Source: Arcobacter porcinus (GTDB taxonomy: Bacteria > Campylobacterota > Campylobacteria > Campylobacterales > Arcobacteraceae). Taken from it: DNA of 64,000 bases. Of this stretch, positions 4,993 through 21,163 are shown piece by piece. Within the stretch, counting starts at the first letter, position 1. Every line of letters starts with the position of its first letter. The notes below the pieces were generated by a model. The model had not been told where the DNA came from. It saw nothing but the letters and a program-made list of their open reading frames with translations, and did not search any database. Location: the NCBI RefSeq assembly GCF_004299785.2, contig NZ_CP036246.2:1054001-1118000 (forward strand), in the 5' to 3' direction. The translations under genes and the position numbers were made by a program.

Positions 4993-5016
4993 TTTATGGC
5001 TTTTATATATTTTTTA
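4979..5016 (+). terminator. Rho-independent terminator after the SprA/rod-like pair
   Basis: An 11-bp stem (ATATAAAAGCC / GGCTTTTATAT) with an 8-base loop is followed by ATTTTTTA on the plus strand. It lies across the stop of the rod-like gene. Confidence 0.8.
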
Positions 5017-5494
5017 TAAATTTATTTAACTCTTTTAATTCATATTCATTAAAAACTTTTATTCCATTTTCTTCTAATAATCTGGCACTCAAACCTTTTT
5101 CTTTAATCAATTTTTTGCTAAATGTTCCATCATAAACTTCAATATTTCCACATGATGGAGATTTTGATTTAAATAAAGCGACTTTTATACCATTTTCTAA
5201 ACATATATCTAAAGCTTTTTTAGCACCAAGCAAAAAATTTATTGTAATATCCTCTTTATTTTCATCAATAACTTTAATTGGCTTTTCATGGCTTATAATT
5301 TCAGCTTTTGCTCTAGGTACACCTAATCCACCAGATATTTCAGGACAGATTGAATATATCTCATTTTCACACATAATATCCATAAAAAGTTCTTTTTCTG
5401 AAAACTTAAATTTTGGATTTAAAGCTATATTTGAGCTCTCTGCATCATATCTTGTATTCTCTCCTAAAAGGCAAGAAGATACTAAGATTTTCAT
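5003..5494 (-). CDS. DUF523 family protein
   Basis: Small cytoplasmic protein (163 residues) with the DUF523 hallmarks: an N-terminal SSCLLGENTRYD, a central CPEISGGLGVPR, and FKSKSPSCG in the last half. The three conserved Cys-containing loops suggest metal or Fe-S binding, but no activity is established for this length of the family. Single gene facing the SprA operon, ending inside that operon's terminator. Confidence 0.8.
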   Translation of the reverse strand: MKILVSSCLLGENTRYDAESSNIALNPKFKFSEKELFMDIMCENEIYSICPEISGGLGVPRAKAEIISHEKPIKVIDENKEDITINFLLGAKKALDICLENGIKVALFKSKSPSCGNIEVYDGTFSKKLIKEKGLSARLLEENGIKVFNEYELKELNKFIKNI

Positions 5495-5555: not shown

Positions 5556-7229
5556 TTAGTTTGTTTTTGCAACTTTAACTGTAAAAATAGCACCTACATC
5601 ACTATTTTTAACATTTATAAAACCTTTCATATTTCTTTCTATAATATTTTTTGCCATATAAAGACCTATTCCAGTACCTTGAGTTTGATATCTTGTTGTA
5701 AAATATGGGTCAAAAATTTTATCAATGTTTATTTTATCAACTCCTCCTGCATTATCTTTTATTTTAATAATTGCATATTTTACACCATTTTTTATCTCTA
5801 AAATTATTTTTGGATTCTTTATATCTCTTTCAATTAAAATATCTTTTGCATTGTTTATTAAATTTAAAATAACTTGAGAGAATTCATTTTTGTAGGCCAA
5901 AATATCTATATCATCTTTTATATCAAATCTCATTTCAATATTATGATATTTTAAAGTAGATTCAACTATAAAATATGCATCTTTACAAGCTTGTTCTATT
6001 GAGAATAACTCTTTTTCTCCTTGAGGTTTAAAGAAATTTCTAAAATCATCTATCGTTTGAGACATATAATTAGTTAATTTATTTGCTTCAATTATCTTTT
6101 TTTCTAAGTACTCTTTTGTAAATTTATCAAAATTATAAGTTACTTTCATATTCATATGAATAGCTGATATTTGAGATAAAGGTTGTCTCCATTGATGAGC
6201 TATATTTCCTATCATCTCTCCCATTGCAGCTAATTTACTTTGTTGAATTAAGATTTGCTCTTGTTTTAATCTATGTTTTATCTCTTTTTGAATTCTATTT
6301 TCAAGATTTCCTATAACACTATTTATCATATTTTTAAGTTCATTTAATGAAGTATCATTTGTATCTTGGGTAAGTCTAGTTCCTAAGTTACCACTTTTTA
6401 TATTTTCTAAAACTTTAGTAGCATTTTTAATTAAAGCTTCATTTTGTTCTATATTTTCTCTAATATAAGATACATTTTGATTTATCATTTTAGCTATTTG
6501 ACCAAATTCATCTTTTCCTTCATTATTTATATCTGAAACTTCTGTTTTTTTATCATTTAAATAATAGAAAAAATTTGTAAGAGCACTTTTTACTTTGTAA
6601 ATTGATTGTAAAATATTATTAACAATAAATAATCCAATAAAAATTGAAAAAGAGAGTATTAAAGCTATACTTATAAAAACTTCAAGTTTTACTTCTGTAA
6701 ATTTATTTGAAGCATCATCATATACTCTTGATACATTATTTAAAGCATCTTTTTGTAAATTTAATATTTCTGATACTAAAAGATCAAACTGTTTTTTACT
6801 AACAGTAGTTACATTTATATAAGCTCCTTCTTCAAATTCATCTTCTAAATATTTTTTAGTTTTTGAGATATTATTTTTATATTTTTCAAACATTTTATAA
6901 AGATTTTCATTACAAATATCTCTATTATTAAAATTTTTATCCAATTCTTTTAAGACAAAATCTAATTCTTTTGATATTTGAGCTCTTATCTCATTATTTG
7001 GAGCAATTACTAAAGATTGATGAAGTTGTCTTAGATTGTATAAAGGAGTTATTATTTCATTTTGTAAAAATAAAACAATTTCTGATTTACTATGAACTAT
7101 TTTCATAGTCATTTTATTATCTTCACTAATATCAATAGTTTTATATCCTAAAAGAAAGATAGAGCTACACAACAAAATAAACAATATCGCAAGTTTTGTT
7201 CTGATTTTTAAATTTTTTAATAAATTCAT
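5556..7229 (-). CDS. Membrane sensor histidine kinase of the S/N-oxide reductase locus
   Basis: 557 residues. A membrane segment at 12-29, a helical periplasmic sensor region of about 150 residues, a second membrane segment at 183-203, a HAMP-like linker, a coiled coil, then the kinase core. The phospho-acceptor is H345 in [10 protein letters not shown]. The ATPase has the N box (NLINNAKDI), DNAGG and [13 protein letters not shown]. It overlaps the binding-protein gene by 4 bp, and that gene overlaps the response regulator by 8 bp, so all three are one operon. Together they resemble the layout of the E. coli TorT-TorS-TorR system, but the sensor domain is not recognisably TorS. The ligand is unknown. 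Confidence 0.88.
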   Translation of the reverse strand: MNLLKNLKIRTKLAILFILLCSSIFLLGYKTIDISEDNKMTMKIVHSKSEIVLFLQNEIITPLYNLRQLHQSLVIAPNNEIRAQISKELDFVLKELDKNFNNRDICNENLYKMFEKYKNNISKTKKYLEDEFEEGAYINVTTVSKKQFDLLVSEILNLQKDALNNVSRVYDDASNKFTEVKLEVFISIALILSFSIFIGLFIVNNILQSIYKVKSALTNFFYYLNDKKTEVSDINNEGKDEFGQIAKMINQNVSYIRENIEQNEALIKNATKVLENIKSGNLGTRLTQDTNDTSLNELKNMINSVIGNLENRIQKEIKHRLKQEQILIQQSKLAAMGEMIGNIAHQWRQPLSQISAIHMNMKVTYNFDKFTKEYLEKKIIEANKLTNYMSQTIDDFRNFFKPQGEKELFSIEQACKDAYFIVESTLKYHNIEMRFDIKDDIDILAYKNEFSQVILNLINNAKDILIERDIKNPKIILEIKNGVKYAIIKIKDNAGGVDKINIDKIFDPYFTTRYQTQGTGIGLYMAKNIIERNMKGFINVKNSDVGAIFTVKVAKTN

Positions 7230-8875
7230 TTTATTCTCTTTGGTTTTATTGGTTTTTCTAACTCTTTATCATATTTTTTATCACCTCTTATTGACCAATG
7301 ATTTGTGCTAACTTCCATCTCCCATAAAGGTATAACACCTCCTCTATAAGGTTTAAAGATAAGCTCTTTATTTAATGCAAATACATTATTTAAAGAAGGA
7401 ACTCTTAAAGTATAAGCTTTTTCTCTTTCTCTATGTAAAATATTTTTTACAATATTTTTATACTCTTTTGTATGTGCTTTGGTAATAAAAAAACTTTGAA
7501 TATTTTTTTGCATAAACTCATCTTTTGGAATAGTTGACCATGCGCTTCCATGTTTATATATAAAAAAGACACTCCAAGGATTTTGTCCATACCAATCATC
7601 ATCTCCCCAAACTAATAAATCCCAATCTTTTTTATTTTTATTTTTACTTGTTGTTAAAAGTTCTTGATATATATCTTTTTCACTTCTTGTAATTGTATAA
7701 TTAAACTCTACTCCATATTTTTTTAGTTGAAACTCTATTCCTTTTAATAAAAATAAAAATCTATCTTGAGTAAAAATATTTAATTTTATTCCATTTAACA
7801 GAGTTTTTAATTCATCTTGTGTGAAGTTTTTCTCTTTTATTTCAAAATCATTTGCCACTTGTTCTACAATATCATAATTTATTGAAGCAGTAAAAGGAGA
7901 AATTCTGCCTTCATTTTTATATACAAAATTTAGTAAGTTTTCTTGATTTAATGCTTGATTTAGTGCAACTCTTACAATATCATTTTCTAATTTTTTATTT
8001 CCATTTATTAAATTAAAAAATATAATAAAATTATCTGTCGATTTTGAAATAATAAGTTTTGAATATTTTGATAATATTATTTCAAACTTTTTATTAAAAG
8101 GAATTGGCATAAAGTCTAATTTTCCTTCATTTTTAGTAATATCTTCTATTGCTTTGTTTACATCTAACTGCGTATAAACTGTTATTCTTTTTATTTTTGG
8201 AAATCTTTTATCCCAATAATATGGATTTGCAATCAGTTCTAATTTTTCTGTATGCTTATCTCCAATTGCAAAGCCCTCTTTTAAAATATAAGGTCCCATA
8301 CTGTAAGCACCTGATGCTTTATTTGCTGTTCCTGTATATTTACCAACTGGATTATATTTTTCTATATACTCCTTTTTATAAAAATATATAGCTGCTAAAT
8401 CATTTAAAAATAACTCATATTTACTTTTTAAAACTATCTTGATTCTTTTGTTATCAAGTTTAAAAATATCAAAACTTACTTTATCTATATTTGTATATAA
8501 ATATGGGTTATTTTTAAAAAATTCTAAATTATAAATTACATCATCAATAGTAAAATCATCTCCATCTTGGAATTTTAAATTATCTCTTAATGTAAAAATA
8601 TATGTAAAATCATCTAATCTTTCATGAGATTCTGCAAGGTCGTAAACCCAACCATTTTTATTATCATAAGTTCTTAAAAGTCCAGAATTTGTAGCTTTAG
8701 CTACATAAGAGTAAGGCAAAGAAGGAAGAAAAATATTAATATGAGAATTTGGATGAAGTTTACTTGCCCTATTTTTAATACTACTATCTTCTCTAAATTC
8801 TAAATTATCAGCAATATACTCAGAAGAGAACAAAAATGATGATAAAAAAAGTATTAAAAAAAGTTTTTTAAACAA
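7226..8875 (-). CDS. Periplasmic extracellular solute-binding protein, family 5 (peptide/nickel type)
   Basis: 549 residues with a signal peptide (MFKKLFLILFLSSFLFS). The body has the SBP_bac_5 pattern: a motif near the start listing the running state of transport (SLPYSYVAKATNSGLLRTYD), LRDNLKFQDGDDFTIDDVIY, and a second-lobe region with VRVALNQALNQENL. No ABC permease or ATPase gene is nearby; instead it is coupled to a histidine kinase and a response regulator. I infer a periplasmic ligand sensor for the kinase rather than an uptake component. The ligand could be the reductase substrate or a peptide. Confidence 0.85.
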   Translation of the reverse strand: MFKKLFLILFLSSFLFSSEYIADNLEFREDSSIKNRASKLHPNSHINIFLPSLPYSYVAKATNSGLLRTYDNKNGWVYDLAESHERLDDFTYIFTLRDNLKFQDGDDFTIDDVIYNLEFFKNNPYLYTNIDKVSFDIFKLDNKRIKIVLKSKYELFLNDLAAIYFYKKEYIEKYNPVGKYTGTANKASGAYSMGPYILKEGFAIGDKHTEKLELIANPYYWDKRFPKIKRITVYTQLDVNKAIEDITKNEGKLDFMPIPFNKKFEIILSKYSKLIISKSTDNFIIFFNLINGNKKLENDIVRVALNQALNQENLLNFVYKNEGRISPFTASINYDIVEQVANDFEIKEKNFTQDELKTLLNGIKLNIFTQDRFLFLLKGIEFQLKKYGVEFNYTITRSEKDIYQELLTTSKNKNKKDWDLLVWGDDDWYGQNPWSVFFIYKHGSAWSTIPKDEFMQKNIQSFFITKAHTKEYKNIVKNILHREREKAYTLRVPSLNNVFALNKELIFKPYRGGVIPLWEMEVSTNHWSIRGDKKYDKELEKPIKPKRIK

Positions 8876-9554
8876 ATCTATAACCTATACCTGAAAGATT
8901 TAATATAATATCACTAGGAAGCTTTTTTCTTAAATTTCGAACTAAAGACCTTAAAGCACTATCTGTCATAATATCATCTTGCCAAACTTTACTTTGCAGC
9001 TCTTCATACGTAGTTACTCTATTTTTATTTGATATTAAAACTTCAAAAAATGACATCTCTTTTTTATTTAAAAATATAATATCATCTTTATATCTTAACT
9101 CTTTTTTATCATAATCAAAACTATAATTTTCATCTGTTTCAAGTAAAACAATATTATTAATATCAAGATTTAAAATACATTTTTCTAAAGAATCCAATAG
9201 TTCATCTAATTCTATTGGTTTTACAATATATTTTTCCATATGAAGCTCAACAGCTTCAAGAAGATATTTTTTATCTGTAAAAGCTGTAATCATAACAATT
9301 GGTATATTTCTATCTTCTTGCCTTACTTTTTTGACAAATTCAATACCATTTAAAATTGGCATATGTATATCACTAAGAATAATATCTGGTTTTTCTCTTT
9401 TATAAAGGTCAAAGGCTTCTTCACCATTTGAAGCCTCTATAACCTTTTTTACATAGTATCCTAAACTATCTGCAATATTTTTTCTTATTCCTTCTTCATC
9501 TTCTACATAAAGTATTGTCAAGTTTTTCAACTTTTCAATATTTTCTTCTTTCAT
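8868..9554 (-). CDS. OmpR-type response regulator of the S/N-oxide reductase locus
   Basis: 228 residues. A receiver domain (LYVEDEE near 16-22, phospho-acceptor D62 in LSDIHMP, T90 in MITA, K112-P113) is followed by a winged-helix DNA-binding domain (SALRSLVRNLRKKLP, GIGYRFV). First gene downstream of the cytochrome, and it overlaps the binding-protein gene by 8 bp. It probably activates the torA promoter region in 12549-12662. It resembles the regulator at 23127-23810 closely in both domains. Confidence 0.9.
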   Translation of the reverse strand: MKEENIEKLKNLTILYVEDEEGIRKNIADSLGYYVKKVIEASNGEEAFDLYKREKPDIILSDIHMPILNGIEFVKKVRQEDRNIPIVMITAFTDKKYLLEAVELHMEKYIVKPIELDELLDSLEKCILNLDINNIVLLETDENYSFDYDKKELRYKDDIIFLNKKEMSFFEVLISNKNRVTTYEELQSKVWQDDIMTDSALRSLVRNLRKKLPSDIILNLSGIGYRFV

Positions 9555-9562
9555 AAATCTAC

Positions 9563-10108
9563 CTATTTGTTATTTTTATAAAAACCATCTTTTGCATTTG
9601 CTTTTAAATATCTTAACATATAATCTGTTTCGCTATCATCAAGTTGAGCAAAACCTTTCATAGTTTGTAATATTGCTTCCCATTCTAGCATAGTATGAGT
9701 TACAGCTCTATGTCCAGCATGACAAGAAGAACACATATCATAATAAAACTCTTCATGCTCTTCCCAAGAATCTTTTATTTTTGAAGTTAAATATGATTTT
9801 TCAATTTTTGCTTCTATTTTTATTGCTTGAAGTTCATTTGAATCTTTTATAAAATTATCACTATTTGTTGCCATCAAAAGAAGTTTTGAATTATTTGAAT
9901 AAAATTGATTTTTTATAGCAAAACCATCAATCTCTACTAATGATATTTTATCATCTATATCTTTTATTAATTTAACAGGTGTTCCAATTAGAATTTCACC
10001 TTTTTTTCCATCAAATTCAACTTTTGCATTCTCTAAAAGATACATTTCATTTGAATAAGAAAAACTTGTTAAAAAGAATAAACTTAATACTATTTTTATA
10101 ATTTTCAT
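9563..10108 (-). CDS. Periplasmic monoheme c-type cytochrome, partner of the TorA-type reductase
   Basis: 181 residues with a signal peptide (to about residue 19) and a single haem site C126-S-S-C129-H130 near the C-terminus; M140 may be the sixth ligand. The N-terminal 100 residues form a beta-rich domain without a known motif. The gene starts two bases after torA. The layout matches the Campylobacter jejuni Cj0264c/Cj0265c pair, in which the cytochrome feeds electrons to a TMAO/DMSO reductase. It lacks the pentahaem membrane anchor of E. coli TorC. Confidence 0.85.
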   Translation of the reverse strand: MKIIKIVLSLFFLTSFSYSNEMYLLENAKVEFDGKKGEILIGTPVKLIKDIDDKISLVEIDGFAIKNQFYSNNSKLLLMATNSDNFIKDSNELQAIKIEAKIEKSYLTSKIKDSWEEHEEFYYDMCSSCHAGHRAVTHTMLEWEAILQTMKGFAQLDDSETDYMLRYLKANAKDGFYKNNK

Positions 10109-10109
10109 T

Positions 10110-12548
10110 TTAAGCTCCTACTATTTTTGGTGGATTATAAGCTAAATTTGGTGTAATAACTTTAACTTTCCTTATACTTACAAGAGTTGAATTTACAGAA
10201 GTTGCATTTGCCATTTTTGATGTTGCTTTTGATGTTGTTAAAACATTTACATGTCCTGAATTACATCTTACTTTTCTTTGATCATTTCCAGAAAATAAAG
10301 AATCACCAGCATTTGCATCTTCAGGAGAATACCAAGCACCCTCTTCAATAGCAACAACTCCATCTCTAATTGTATTTGTAACAACAACACCTGCTAAAAT
10401 ACTCCCTCTTTCATTATAAACTTCAACAACTTCCCCATCTTTAATTCCAAATTTCTTTGCATCATTTGGAGATATTCTTATTGGTTCTCTGCCTTGTACT
10501 TTTATCGCATTTTGTACCCAAGTATTATCTAATTGTGTATGAATTCTATTTGTTGGATGTGGACTTAAAAGATGTAATGGATATTTCTTAATTAATTCTT
10601 CATTACCTAACCATTCTGTTGGTTCAAACCACATTGGATGTCCTTTAAAATCATCATATCCATATGAAGCTAATTTTTCAGAATAAATCTGTATTTTCCC
10701 AGTTTCTGTTTTTAGTGCATTTGCAATAGGATCTTTTCTAAATCCTTCATGTCTTACATATTTTTTTGCACTTTCTGGAATATCATAAGCAATAACACCT
10801 TTTTCCCAAAACTCTTCAAAAGATATTTTCATATTTCTTTTTGCTGAAGATATATTATAAATTCTTTCTAGCCAATCTTTTGGTGTTCTGTCTCTTGTAT
10901 AAGCTTTTTCTTTTCCAAATCTTTTTGCTAATTCTGTAAAAATTTCATAATCATCTTTTGCTTCATATCTTGCATCAACAATCTTTTTCATAGCATAAAT
11001 TCTATCATTTGAATATGACATTGCACTTGCAATATCATCTCTTTCCATTGTTGTAGTTGCTGGTAAAACTATATCAGCCATTTTAGCTGTTGGAGTCCAC
11101 CAAGGTTCAATTACAACAAAAGTATCTAATTTTCTTAAAGCATCAATTAGCTCATTTGTATTTGGTTGATGACCAATAGGTGAAGCTCCAGCACTTAACA
11201 TAAAATGAACTTTTGGATAAATAATTTCACTACCTTTATATGTAACTTTTTCACCTGGCTTATTTATTAAATCACTCATTCTTGAAGCTGGAATAGAGAT
11301 ATTAACTTCATCTCCTCCTCCTTGACTAATTCCACCAACTGTTCTTTGTCCTGAAGCGGCATCCCCTCCTCCTTCATAATGCATAGAAAACCCAAAACCT
11401 CCTCCTGCTAATCCAACTTGACCTATCATAGAAGCTAAAGTAATTAATGCCCAATCCACTTGCTCTCCATGTTCTGCTCTTTGCATAGCCCAGTTTCCTG
11501 CTATAAAAGTTCTATTTGAAATCATAATATCTGCAAGTTTTTCAATAGTTTTAGCTGGAATTTCAGTCAGTTTTTCTGCCCATTTTGTAGTCTTTTCTAT
11601 ACCGTCACTTTCTCCAAGTAAATATGGTAAGAATTTATCAAAACCATATGTATATTTTTCAATAAACTCTTTATCATATTTTCCACTTTTATATAAGTAA
11701 TTCATCATAGCTAACATCAAAGCAACATCAGAACCAGGTCTAATTTTTATCCAATCTGCTTTGAATTCTTTCGCTGAAGTAGTATATATTGGATCAATTG
11801 ATATTACTTTTATACCTGCTTTTTTATACTCTTCATATGCATCATAACATCTATGATTTGGTACAGAATAACCTGCTCTATTTGTTTTATAAAGGTCAGC
11901 TCCCCATAAAACTAGAACTTTTGTATTTGCAATTATTTGTTCATGTGCTGTTTGAATAGAATAAACTTCCATATCACCAACTATTGATGGGTTTACAGCT
12001 CCAGCTGCTCCATTTGAATACTCTCCAAAAGTTCCAACAGCTCCACCAATTTGATTAAAAAATCTTCCTGCTAAAACATTTGGTTTAAATGTACCTGGAT
12101 GTGACCAACCACCATAAGAAGCATTATAAAGTGATTCGTTTCCACCTTTTTTTTGTGCTTTTTTTATAGCCTCAACAACTAAATCCAATGCTTTTTCCCA
12201 AGAAACTCTAACAAACTCTTCTTTTCCTCTTAGTTCACCTTTTTCTTTTCCTTCTAAATAACTCTTTCTTACAACTGGATATTTAACCCTTGAATCAGAA
12301 CTATTTCTATCTGCTAAAGCCTTAACCAAAACCGTAGGATTTGCATCAGAATCAAGCTGAGAAGTAATATCAACAATTTCTCCATCCATTACATGTGCAT
12401 AAAATGCACCAAAATGTGATGCACTTGGAATTTTTACAGTTCTTTTTGCAAACTCTTTTGCAAAAGCACCACTTAATGTACCACTTCCTGCCAAAACTGC
12501 CGAAGTTGCAGCTGAAACTTTAAGAAAATTTCTTCTAGATTTAATCAT
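10110..12548 (-). CDS. torA: Periplasmic molybdopterin oxidoreductase (TMAO/DMSO reductase, TorA/BisC type)
   Basis: 812 residues. A twin-arginine signal (SRRNFLK) marks Tat export of the folded enzyme. No N-terminal CxxC 4Fe-4S motif is present, as expected for this subfamily. SYGGWSHPG and the Mo-ligand loop EYSNGA (S178) match the DMSO reductase class with a serine ligand, and the C-terminal molydopterin dinucleotide domain (SPHPTNRIHTQLDN, then GREPIRISPNDA) is complete. It reduces S- or N-oxides as terminal electron acceptors, with the adjacent cytochrome as donor. The exact substrate cannot be told from sequence. Divergent from a porin gene. Confidence 0.88.
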   Translation of the reverse strand: MIKSRRNFLKVSAATSAVLAGSGTLSGAFAKEFAKRTVKIPSASHFGAFYAHVMDGEIVDITSQLDSDANPTVLVKALADRNSSDSRVKYPVVRKSYLEGKEKGELRGKEEFVRVSWEKALDLVVEAIKKAQKKGGNESLYNASYGGWSHPGTFKPNVLAGRFFNQIGGAVGTFGEYSNGAAGAVNPSIVGDMEVYSIQTAHEQIIANTKVLVLWGADLYKTNRAGYSVPNHRCYDAYEEYKKAGIKVISIDPIYTTSAKEFKADWIKIRPGSDVALMLAMMNYLYKSGKYDKEFIEKYTYGFDKFLPYLLGESDGIEKTTKWAEKLTEIPAKTIEKLADIMISNRTFIAGNWAMQRAEHGEQVDWALITLASMIGQVGLAGGGFGFSMHYEGGGDAASGQRTVGGISQGGGDEVNISIPASRMSDLINKPGEKVTYKGSEIIYPKVHFMLSAGASPIGHQPNTNELIDALRKLDTFVVIEPWWTPTAKMADIVLPATTTMERDDIASAMSYSNDRIYAMKKIVDARYEAKDDYEIFTELAKRFGKEKAYTRDRTPKDWLERIYNISSAKRNMKISFEEFWEKGVIAYDIPESAKKYVRHEGFRKDPIANALKTETGKIQIYSEKLASYGYDDFKGHPMWFEPTEWLGNEELIKKYPLHLLSPHPTNRIHTQLDNTWVQNAIKVQGREPIRISPNDAKKFGIKDGEVVEVYNERGSILAGVVVTNTIRDGVVAIEEGAWYSPEDANAGDSLFSGNDQRKVRCNSGHVNVLTTSKATSKMANATSVNSTLVSIRKVKVITPNLAYNPPKIVGA

Positions 12549-12630
12549 TATTTATCCTTTATAATAAATTAAAATTATTTTAATCTAAAAAAAGAGCAAA
12601 AAAATCGATTATTTTTCTATTTTATTTTTT

Positions 12631-12662: not shown

Positions 12663-13871
12663 ATGAAAAAATTTAATTTGAGTTTAATCGCTGTTTTAGC
12701 TATATCATCAGCTTCAGTAATACATGCTTCAACACTACAAGAAGCACTAAAAGATGGTAAAGTAAGTGGAGAAGTTACACTTACAACAGAAGAGAGATAC
12801 TTCAAAAAAGATATTGACTCTTATTATAGAGATAGTGCTTATGGAGTTGGTTCTTTTGCATTAAAGTATGAAACAGGTGTTTGGAATAATTTAAGCCTAA
12901 CAAGTAAAACAAGAGCATATAAAACTATATGGGAAAAAAGTAGAACAAAACCTACAGGTACAGGTACAGGTGATGCAACTGGAAGATTTTATGAAAAAGA
13001 TGGTGTAAAACAGACAGTTGATATTGAATCACTATTTTTAGAATATACTCCAAATTCAAATATAAATGTTAAAGCTGGTAGACAGGATTTAAATTCTGAT
13101 TGGATGAATAAAATTCATGATGCTGTAAAAATTGAAGCTAATTTCAAAAATACTTCTATTGAAGCTATTTGGTCAATAAGAGATGGTAGAGTTCATGCTA
13201 GAGATTATAGACCTTTAGAAAAAATGAATGGAAACAAAGGTGTTTATAAATTAGGTATTAATCAAAAATTCAATGAAAATATATCTGCAACTGCTTATGG
13301 TTTAGTTTTTCCAGATTCAAAAGAGATTTATGGAGCAAAAGTAAATTTAGCCTATGATGACACAAAAGCAAGAATCCACTACGCATATAGTGATGAAGGA
13401 AAATCTTTAGATAAGAATTCTGTAAAAGATGTAAAATCTGACATTATAGATATTATGTTTAGTACATCTTTATTTGGTTTCTCTCCTTATTTAGGATATG
13501 CAAAAGTTAGTGATGACTTAGCATTTCCAGGATACAATACAAATGAAAAAAGTAGAGAATCAGGAGAAATCATAGTTCCTTTTGAAGAGGGTGATTATTT
13601 TTATAGTAGAGGTGCTAGCACAATTTATGCAGGTATTGGTAAAACAATTGGTGATTTTAATGCCACTTTCCTTTATGGAAATACAAAATATTATAAAGAT
13701 CCAAAAGGTCAAGATAATAAAAAGAATACTGTTGATGAAGCAACACTTTGGCTTGGGTATAAAATTACATCTGATTTAAAATCTAATTTAGGTTACACTT
13801 ATGTAAATGAAAAAGATACAAATATTGGTGAGTATAATCAAGTAAATCTTACTTTTACTTACTCATTTTAA
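12663..13871 (+). CDS. Outer membrane porin, OprD-like (Campylobacterota Opr family)
   Basis: 402 residues with a 22-residue signal peptide ending IHA. The body alternates amphipathic strands (for example VNLTFTYSF at the end) and finishes with the C-terminal Phe recognised by the Bam machinery. SLFLEYTPNSNINVKAGRQD is a typical porin strand-turn region. Likely a general or substrate-specific channel. It is divergent from torA, so it may supply the oxide substrate, but this is inference. Its stop lies next to a hairpin that serves the convergent gene. Confidence 0.85.
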   Translation: MKKFNLSLIAVLAISSASVIHASTLQEALKDGKVSGEVTLTTEERYFKKDIDSYYRDSAYGVGSFALKYETGVWNNLSLTSKTRAYKTIWEKSRTKPTGTGTGDATGRFYEKDGVKQTVDIESLFLEYTPNSNINVKAGRQDLNSDWMNKIHDAVKIEANFKNTSIEAIWSIRDGRVHARDYRPLEKMNGNKGVYKLGINQKFNENISATAYGLVFPDSKEIYGAKVNLAYDDTKARIHYAYSDEGKSLDKNSVKDVKSDIIDIMFSTSLFGFSPYLGYAKVSDDLAFPGYNTNEKSRESGEIIVPFEEGDYFYSRGASTIYAGIGKTIGDFNATFLYGNTKYYKDPKGQDNKKNTVDEATLWLGYKITSDLKSNLGYTYVNEKDTNIGEYNQVNLTFTYSF

Positions 13872-19892: not shown

Positions 19893-19940
19893 AGATTTAA
19901 GTACTAACTTGTGATCTTTTTACAATTTACTGTTTATGAC
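19893..19940 (+). repeat. Left subterminal inverted repeat of IS110 copy 1
   Basis: This 48-bp segment, at the end of the transposase gene, is an imperfect inverted repeat of 21386-21432 in the leader. They share the 12-bp core AAGTACTAACTT exactly and, in the left orientation, end in TATGAC. About four fifths of positions match. Such internal repeats are more like the subterminal repeats of the IS1111 group than plain IS110. Confidence 0.7.
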
Positions 19941-21163
19941 TTAGAAAATACACGAGATGGATCATATGGAGTGTTGTATCTAAATATAGAGTAAATTATG
20001 GTTGCAAGTTTTCTAGCAACAGCAATAATTCCCTCCTGTTTGGATTTACCTTGAGACTTTTTTGTATCATAATATTGTTTTAGTTCTTTGTTGTGTAATA
20101 AACAACTAACACTTGCCATATATAAAGCATGTTTAGCTAAAGAAGAACCTCTTTTGCTTAAATGACCTGTAGATTTGGAATTACCTGAGCTATTTTCTGT
20201 TGGAAATAATCCAAGATAACCAATAAATTTAATAGGTGTTTTAAATCTTGATAGATCTCCACATTCACTAATAACTGCAGCAATAGTTTTAGATGAAACT
20301 CCAGGAATAGTTTTTAAGTTCTCAATCAATGAATTAGTTGGAACATCTTTTTCCTCTTTAATACCATTTTTTTCAAGAAGTGCTAATATCTCTTCTTCTA
20401 ATATAGATAGTTCTTCTTGATATATTTTAAGAAGTCTAATAGAACTTTTAATAGCAATAGCTCTTGCATCTTTGGCTTTACCTGAATAAATAGAGTTTTT
20501 TGCTAACTCTAAAACCTCTATAGCCTTTTGGTTATTAAAACTATTTCCTTGAATATGTCTAAAAATTTTAAGTATCCTGTCAACACTACTATGTTTATAG
20601 TGGTGTGCAGTTGGATATTTATCTAAAAGTGCAAGCCCTGTGATGCTAAATATATCAATAAAATTTTCAAGTTCTGGAAATGTAACTGTTACTTGAGTAA
20701 GTATTCTCTTCTTTACTTCTTTCATGTCTGATTGTATAGAAGCACGATTACGATATAAAGTTCTTAAACTCTGATATTCGTCATCAGTTACATAACCTGA
20801 ACTATATTTACCATCTTTTAAAAATAAAGCTATGATCCAAGAATCTATGTTGTCGTTTTTTACTTTCTTCATTGTGTGTTGTTCTCTATATCTAGTTGTT
20901 TGAAATGGATTTAATAGTTTAACATTAAACCCATGAGAATTTAAAAACTCCCAAAGGTTTTCACCATAAATACCAGTTGCTTCAAGACCAATTATAAAAT
21001 CATTTGTATTTGATGAAATAGTTTCAAGTTTAGTAATAAACTTTGAAAATCCATCAATACAGTTTGTAACTCTTATAGGTTTTTGTGTAACTTTTACTTC
21101 ATTCTCATCAATGATAGTAACAACATGAAAGCTTTTAGCAATATCAATTCCAACATAATACAT
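19934..21163 (-). CDS. IS110-family transposase (DEDD recombinase), copy 1
   Basis: 409 residues. The N-terminal RuvC-like DEDD domain starts YYVGIDIAKSFHVV with the first Asp, and GLEATGIYG holds the Glu. The C-terminal Tnp domain has IPGVSSKTIAAVISECGDLS and the serine region SKRGSSLAKHALYMASVS. Full-length and intact. Identical in protein to the copy at 51726-52955, so both are recent and at least one was active lately. Transcribed from the long leader at its right. Confidence 0.95.
   Translation of the reverse strand: MYYVGIDIAKSFHVVTIIDENEVKVTQKPIRVTNCIDGFSKFITKLETISSNTNDFIIGLEATGIYGENLWEFLNSHGFNVKLLNPFQTTRYREQHTMKKVKNDNIDSWIIALFLKDGKYSSGYVTDDEYQSLRTLYRNRASIQSDMKEVKKRILTQVTVTFPELENFIDIFSITGLALLDKYPTAHHYKHSSVDRILKIFRHIQGNSFNNQKAIEVLELAKNSIYSGKAKDARAIAIKSSIRLLKIYQEELSILEEEILALLEKNGIKEEKDVPTNSLIENLKTIPGVSSKTIAAVISECGDLSRFKTPIKFIGYLGLFPTENSSGNSKSTGHLSKRGSSLAKHALYMASVSCLLHNKELKQYYDTKKSQGKSKQEGIIAVARKLATIIYSIFRYNTPYDPSRVFSKS

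Follow-up and report, generated by a model that had tools for sequence, protein, structure and literature searches.

Within a 64,000-nucleotide stretch of the Arcobacter porcinus genome (NCBI RefSeq assembly GCF_004299785.2, contig NZ_CP036246.2, positions 1,054,001 to 1,118,000; hereafter the window), five minus-strand genes between positions 5556 and 12548 form an operon in which a reductase of the TorA/DMSO-reductase family is joined to what is probably its own sensory system. We consider it probable that a family-5 solute-binding protein (SBP) encoded in this operon docks, when ligand-bound, on the tip of the neighbouring histidine kinase and thereby switches on the reductase operon to which it belongs. 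Calling of open reading frames (ORFs) and domain scans on this single-contig genome of 2.02 Mb give the order torA, cytochrome c, OmpR-type response regulator, SBP and histidine kinase, just as in a preliminary description of this DNA. The spacing given there holds for the overlaps, put at 4–8 bp (8 bp for regulator/SBP and 4 bp for SBP/kinase), but not for the gaps, put at 2–9 bp, which measure 1 bp between torA and the cytochrome gene and 8 bp between the cytochrome and regulator genes.

In the mechanism that we propose the SBP would serve as a soluble periplasmic sensor and not as part of a transporter. Its ligand would most likely be an S- or N-oxide respired by the adjoining reductase; methionine sulfoxide, nicotinamide N-oxide and dimethyl sulfoxide are candidates because known S- and N-oxide reductases take them (PMC12096835), and we conjecture that a peptide-sized pocket might favour the larger among such oxides. 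The ligand-loaded SBP would dock on the membrane-distal tip of the kinase, at loops carrying the motifs APN and F-x-E-[GA]-[AS], and the kinase would then phosphorylate the OmpR-type regulator. The regulator, in turn, would raise expression of the whole operon, its own three sensor genes included, by binding the tandem 11-bp repeats that closely precede torA, which would amount to positive feedback.

The binding protein and the rarity of transporter genes beside it

The only Pfam family matched by the SBP is SBP_bac_5 (PF00496), at 113 bits against a cut-off of 32.4, which places it in that family, and its N-terminus carries a signal-peptide-like stretch without a cysteine. The AlphaFold2 model (mean predicted local distance difference test score, pLDDT, 93.9) has the family-5 fold. 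Its best fold match on a second look with VIA is AapF with a bound signalling molecule (Z 32.0, root mean square deviation 2.7, 448 residues aligned), with DppA, AppA, OppA and NikZ close behind. Among these nearest folds the ligands range from peptides and sugars to metal complexes and a signalling molecule, and since family-5 folds accept so many ligands the fold alone does not identify that of the window SBP. The best sequence relatives in the PDB include chitin-oligosaccharide-binding proteins, and the AI-2 (autoinducer-2) binding protein A (AibA) deposited there matches the window SBP in both sequence and fold. Asp427 and Pro433-Trp434 are invariant in 32 family sequences; across 46 sequences Pro433 remains invariant and Asp427 and Trp434 are kept in at least 90%. 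In Dpp and Opp proteins an Asp binds the peptide N-terminus; an attempt to read the ligand from a pocket Asp was abandoned, the profile alignment to generic SBPs being unreliable in that region.

The preliminary description had presented the SBP as lacking ABC transporter genes, and comparison with its relatives bears this out. Only 1 of 108 family loci has an ABC ATPase within 3 kb of the SBP and 2 have one within 5 kb, compared with 8 of 14 control loci of generic SBPs at the 3-kb limit; permeases were not searched separately, and the 108 loci include repeats of the same genomes. A full ABC transporter accompanying the SBP in relatives, named in advance as one observation that would speak against the proposal, was not encountered in this comparison. 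Of the genes flanking the operon, those scanned encode an Opr porin and a protein with a 2-thiouracil desulfurase domain and are not ABC genes, and none of the seven BPD_transp_1 matches in the source genome lies near the operon. That genome holds two SBP_bac_5 matches. The other one (L062:8581-10083, corresponding to G000:C1:136580-138082) likewise has no evident transporter genes directly adjoining; some 3 kb from it there is an ABC ATPase-like ORF.

Conservation in Campylobacterota

The module recurs, in a fixed order, across the phylum. In a sample of 397 Campylobacterota genomes (SBP threshold E 1e-30; gene calls from a greedy ORF script, names from best BLAST matches) the SBP occurs in at least 33, up to three candidates per genome being scored; L037 holds one more. 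Wide stretches around the SBP matches gave 49 loci, all of which have the order regulator–SBP–kinase (with tandem SBPs in L046 and L081). A TorA- or DmsA-family gene stands within about seven genes at 47 of the 49, that of L071 being cut by a contig end. The preliminary description had proposed to follow the co-occurrence of the set with torA in other genomes, and the set does recur beside reductases. The two loci without a recognised reductase are L074 and L077, the latter at a contig end. The genes nearby include TorA with a cytochrome and, in L033, a DmsA-like protein accompanied by a ferredoxin of DmsB-like type and by a TorD/DmsD-like chaperone, all three scoring under the curated cut-offs; in L079 the DmsA- and DmsB-family proteins exceed theirs and the chaperone-like protein falls under.

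torA itself is commoner than the sensor, being found in 159 of the 397 genomes at E 1e-120, and the sensor accompanies only part of these genes. TorA proteins at least 73% identical to that of the window come from 11 genomes, in 10 of which the SBP belongs to the torA operon; G260 is the exception. The kinase sensor domain was detected at E 1e-8 in 37 genomes, including all 33 with the SBP; its 58 sequences represent 56 loci, of which 51 have an SBP gene and five have none. The latter (L166, L170, L171, L172 and G260) retain regulator, kinase and torA, and only one of the five genomes, G061 (L166), has an SBP elsewhere. G260 carries two torA copies (L163 and L164) about 23 kb apart, with the kinase beside one, the regulator beside the other and no SBP gene.

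A second collection, drawn from named genomes, comprises 59 family loci (L083–L141) among the best 80 of 108 matches. Forty-four are from Campylobacterota, and 41 of these have the full regulator–SBP–kinase order; L118, L137 and L139 lack a part of it, the last two at contig ends. L112 is counted with the phylum since its genes, in a record titled Proteobacteria, are 87–98% identical to the Sulfurospirillum type. Judged by the SBP, the nearest named relative in these public contigs, among the same best matches and with very near records perhaps left out, is Aliarcobacter vitoriensis (75%). Tandem SBP genes, or pieces of SBP ORFs, precede a single kinase in L046, L081, L105, L118, L131 and L141, and in L046, L081 and L105 both exceed 500 residues; such kinases may receive two ligands.

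SBP sequences cluster by the reductase next to which they are encoded. From 109 SBPs, 89 were left after removal of copies at least 98% identical, and with the window sequence they made a tree of 90 (generic L062, one of the 89, as outgroup; SBPs shorter than 480 residues and locus L131 skipped). Only six changes among three reductase types are needed over 69 sequences, and 14 over all groups compared with a mean of 51.8 after shuffling. The two SBPs of S. diekertiae (L110 and L113) each group with their own reductase type and not with one another, and the DmsA-like loci L076, L099 and L100 nest among Arcobacter TorA loci, which indicates that a switch of reductase has happened. Because the clades follow reductase type, knowing the ligands of a few SBPs could help to establish which substrates Dms- and Tor-type reductases use, and the family offers a testable sensor–reductase code.

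The kinase sensor domain and its tip motif

The Pfam scan of the kinase gave HATPase_c and, below its cut-off, HisKA, with no receiver or phosphotransfer domain. Its AlphaFold2 model (mean pLDDT 79.3) shows long helices, with breaks at residues 76–78 (APN) and near 130–142, both of which appear from the helix lengths, not from measured distances, to be membrane-distal. Kinship of the sensor domain with that of TorS was looked for in two ways. The Foldseek and VIA matches listed for the full-length kinase were confined to its kinase core, and a profile search of the sensor domain against the PDB returned ten matches up to E 10, none of them convincing, the best (0.0015) to a designed helical protein and none to a sensor. 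Both SBP and kinase are under purifying selection, with ratios of non-synonymous to synonymous substitution (dN/dS) of 0.11 and 0.12 against the close relative G236.

The two helix breaks hold the two conserved motifs. A loose APN pattern is present in 75 of 76 distinct kinases that have an SBP partner, and F-x-E-[GA]-[AS]-[FY] in all 76: the strict form F[DE]E[GA][AS][FY] accounts for 72, FQEGAY for three, and the kinase of L079, which lay outside the searched segment, is counted since it was absent from the non-matching sequences. None of the five kinases from SBP-less loci has the tip motif, even with F-x-E allowed. A tree of kinase cores places at least three independent SBP losses on the starred branches, four on the best tree, with the motif lost each time; a simple Fisher test of motif against SBP presence gives 4.9e-6, a value that ignores relatedness. 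The SBP-less loci act as natural deletions that point to a putative docking loop.

A tandem repeat upstream of the reductase operons

Arcobacter-type operons carry, some 40 bp ahead of the torA start codon, a tandem repeat of 11-bp period whose first unit is TCGATTTTTTT and whose second is TCGATTTTTT or GCTCTTTTTT. Direct repeats of this period are favoured by OmpR/PhoB-type dimers. With up to three mismatches the box occurs in 18 of 20 Arcobacter-type TorA operons, the window excluded (0 of 400 shuffles), in 16 of 19 DmsA-like operons, none of which was used for writing the pattern (about 0.5% of shuffles), and in none of 20 torA genes from sensor-less genomes, where the fewest mismatches are four. 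These controls are the torA genes of highest identity in such genomes, one with a short upstream stretch; the limit of three mismatches was chosen after the counts had been seen, and the DmsA-like and control sets were scored after the pattern had been written. The three DmsA-like misses (L056, L099 and L124) have apparent coding sequence before TorD, so their operons may start further upstream.

The only exact match in the source genome is the torA promoter, with two two-mismatch sites elsewhere. Because the pattern read backwards also gave two matches at up to two mismatches, inexact sites may be due to chance and the exact match counts most. This applies equally to a one-mismatch copy that faces the divergent porin gene, through which porin and reductase may be co-regulated.

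The sensor domain in other phyla

Fifteen of the family loci listed among the best 80 of 108 matches come from outside Campylobacterota, most of them from draft or metagenome records. The hosts are Thiotrichaceae, relatives of Thiomargarita and Beggiatoa, another gammaproteobacterium, Planctomycetota and relatives of Verrucomicrobia, together with Endozoicomonas, Marinomonas, Celerinatantimonas, Vibrio penaeicida and a Desulfococcaceae bacterium. The gene that follows the SBP encodes a chemoreceptor with a four-helix sensor in L102, L104, L107, L109 and L123, a hybrid kinase in L114 and a kinase in L134. In five further loci it encodes a chemoreceptor with another sensor (L127 and L135 as scanned; L126, L128 and L136 as judged from the sequence), and in L103 it is COX1. 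A partner of the four-helix type is present in 9 of the 15 loci (seven scanned with Pfam, nine aligned). No TorA or DmsA relative was recognised within seven genes of the SBP at these loci.

Profile alignment of the Campylobacterota kinase sensor domain (22 sequences) with that of the nine partners gives a probability of 99.9 and E 1.8e-31. The motifs PL..LR..S..VMAPN, W..YK and (F/Y).E.A(F/Y)IN are common to both sets, L134 deviating in the last. The window kinase itself gives no match to 4HB_MCP_1 (PF12729) at 1e-3; this family matches 7 of the 10 partner proteins scanned (L107 under the cut-off), and their domain aligns with that of the kinase. The gene context suggests that one kind of SBP–receptor pair has been reused for gene control and for chemotaxis. 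A wider interpretation, which we put forward tentatively and with less than even confidence, is that of a cassette spread across phyla, in which peptide-type SBPs that have left transport pair with one helical receptor domain, marked by APN and an F/Y-x-E-x-A tip, in histidine kinases, hybrid kinases and chemoreceptors. The Campylobacterota members would be tuned to single S- or N-oxide acceptors and control the matching reductase, an independent invention beside TorT and AioX, and members elsewhere would steer movement toward such compounds.

Relationship to known systems

TorT-type binding proteins belong to a family other than SBP_bac_5, and TorS is a hybrid kinase with receiver and phosphotransfer domains. 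The present system is one that works like TorT-TorS-TorR and AioX-AioS-AioR and is a member of neither, lacking the defining features of both for which it was tested. With TorT-TorS-TorR, which senses trimethylamine N-oxide in E. coli (PMC5908839), it shares a periplasmic binding protein, a kinase and an OmpR-type regulator serving a TorA-type reductase. It differs in its SBP_bac_5 protein, in a kinase of HisKA and HATPase_c only, in proteins that stay below the TorR, TorC and TorA equivalog cut-offs, and in having the regulatory genes inside the reductase operon. The preliminary description was right to assign the SBP to another family than TorT; its further suggestion of a system evolved independently of Tor is partly supported, as far as SBP family and kinase architecture can indicate descent.

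In the AioX/ArxX/ArrX systems an SBP, a kinase and a regulator likewise adjoin a molybdoenzyme, and the SBP serves signalling. AioX, however, is an SBP of another type, with PhnD as structural homologue, whereas the window SBP matched SBP_bac_5 only; the ligand of AioX is an arsenic oxyanion and the regulator of that system acts upstream of an RpoN promoter (PMC5908839). In chitin sensing by Vibrio, CBP, which is related in sequence to the window SBP, controls the membrane receptor ChiS, but it does so as a repressor and in a system without a reductase (PMC10208484); CBP also serves chitooligosaccharide uptake (PMC8449061). Since a related SBP represses its receptor, the sign of control here could be either.

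A further parallel is the AI-2 chemotaxis system AibA/AibB-TlpB of Helicobacter, for which we know of no adjacent two-component system. There, in the same phylum, SBPs signal to a chemoreceptor, the differences being the chemotactic output and the other type of receptor (PMC11705807). According to PMC9602780 and PMC11113362, both of which cite a review, members of at least 13 SBP families act on receptors, so the principle itself is already known. Full-text literature searches, judged by titles and the beginnings of abstracts, yielded no recognisable case of a Tor or Dms reductase under the control of a family-5 SBP, and in the part of a review of Campylobacterota respiratory regulation that was available (PMC6682613) no S- or N-oxide sensor is named. 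We saw no description of this SBP family and its link with a reductase, nor of the sensor domain common to kinases and receptors, the tip motif or the promoter box, although we do not claim that none is in print.

Alternative explanations

Several observations weigh against the proposed mechanism. Neighbourhood alone can mislead, as in Pseudomonas aeruginosa, where in vitro the sensor domain of AgtS bound neither PA0602 nor AgtB, the SBPs encoded beside it (PMC11113362). L074 has the module with no recognised reductase nearby, and the five loci that keep regulator, kinase and torA without an SBP show that the kinase can exist without one. With only three to four losses a sign test cannot reach significance (p 0.25), the clustering of SBPs by reductase owes something to near-copies and shared descent, and the two collections of loci overlap in genome. 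The box is missing from Sulfurospirillum TorA operons (0 of 12), whose regulators are 46–51% identical to that of the window; 11 of the 12 have another repeat of 11-bp period, CTCATT-N5-CTCATT-N(6-8)-GTTA, which was read off the same sequences and has 19 matches in 1.88 Mb of overlapping family loci. Among six promoters at SBP-less loci only the two of G260 lie within three mismatches (1 and 3 for its two torA copies, then 5, 5, 4 and 5).

The SBP might instead be a brake, holding the kinase off while ligand-free and releasing it on ligand binding or on loss of the SBP. CBP represses ChiS in this way without chitin (PMC10208484), chitin-oligosaccharide-binding proteins are among the PDB sequences nearest to the window SBP, and kinase and reductase survive at SBP-less loci. 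The decay of the tip motif in those kinases fits either sign, however, and so gives a brake no preference over an activator; we regard a brake as unlikely. Somewhat less improbable, though still doubtful, is that the module senses a proxy (a peptide, an amino acid, a metal complex or a product of oxidative damage) and not the substrate of the reductase. The range of ligands bound by the nearest folds would allow this, as would the position of the subfamily in other phyla, mostly beside chemoreceptors and away from recognised TorA or DmsA relatives; against it, SBP clades follow reductase type and a reductase gene is close at hand at nearly all loci of the phylum sample. An SBP serving an unlinked ABC importer in trans, with its place in the operon incidental, could draw on the seven BPD_transp_1 proteins of the genome, but the distance of all seven from the SBP, the rarity of ABC ATPases nearby, the fixed regulator–SBP–kinase order in the phylum and the receptor neighbours in other phyla make this very improbable.

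Features of the operon and its surroundings

The reductase has the Pfam domains Molybdopterin and Molydop_binding and is a clear relative of the bisC_fam group (TIGR00509, 960.4 bits, under the cut-off of 1017.55); it scores 713.6 bits with TorA (TIGR02164), under the cut-off of 1465, and its best PDB relative is a trimethylamine-N-oxide reductase. The cytochrome has no Pfam match at 0.001 and falls short of the TorC cut-off of 478.2 bits, its single heme motif setting it apart from the pentaheme TorC. The regulator belongs to the OmpR/PhoB type, with Response_reg at 95.3 bits and Trans_reg_C at 50.4 bits, and lies under the TorR equivalog NF008034 (74.1 bits, cut-off 275).

Table 1. Positions of the operon genes, kinase motifs and putative regulatory sites in the window.
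Feature	Position	Strand	Basis
TorA/DMSO-reductase-family molybdoenzyme (S/N-oxide reductase), first gene of the operon	10110..12548	-	bisC_fam; nearest PDB sequence 7l5i
Monoheme cytochrome c, likely electron donor	9563..10108	-	TorC C-terminal part, 50.7 bits; one CxxCH
OmpR/PhoB-type response regulator	8868..9554	-	PF00072 + PF00486
Family-5 SBP, proposed dedicated sensor	7226..8875	-	PF00496, 113 bits; AlphaFold2; VIA
Sensor histidine kinase	5556..7229	-	Pfam domains; AlphaFold2 model
Periplasmic helical sensor domain of the kinase, about residues 31-190	6660..7139	-	Alignments and AlphaFold2 model
APN motif, kinase residues 76-78, helix break	6996..7004	-	Alignments and AlphaFold2 model
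FEEGAY motif, kinase residues 132-137, proposed SBP docking site	6819..6836	-	Motif comparison
Predicted regulator box, 11-bp units TCGATTTTTTT GCTCTTTTTT, 39 bp before torA start	12588..12608	-	Promoter comparison
Possible second copy of the box, one mismatch, oriented toward the divergent porin gene; perhaps due to chance	12605..12625	+	Genome pattern scan
Opr-family porin, divergent; possible second regulator target	12663..13871	+	NF033923, 552.5 bits

A second TorA-family reductase of the source genome (G000:C1:1973287-1975710; L162:7246-9726) is 43% identical to that of the operon and has its own cytochrome gene; neither a regulator nor a kinase or SBP was recognised next to it. Synonymous divergence (dS) of the operon torA from L063 is only 0.23, compared with 0.53–0.57 for the three adjoining sensor genes, which may reflect recombination or codon selection. 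The 2-thiouracil desulfurase-domain gene (5003-5494) begins 61 bp after the kinase on the same strand, and ORFs of about 164 residues occupy its position in several relatives. Further along the window, a transposase-like ORF at 19934-21163 is presumably of the IS110 type.

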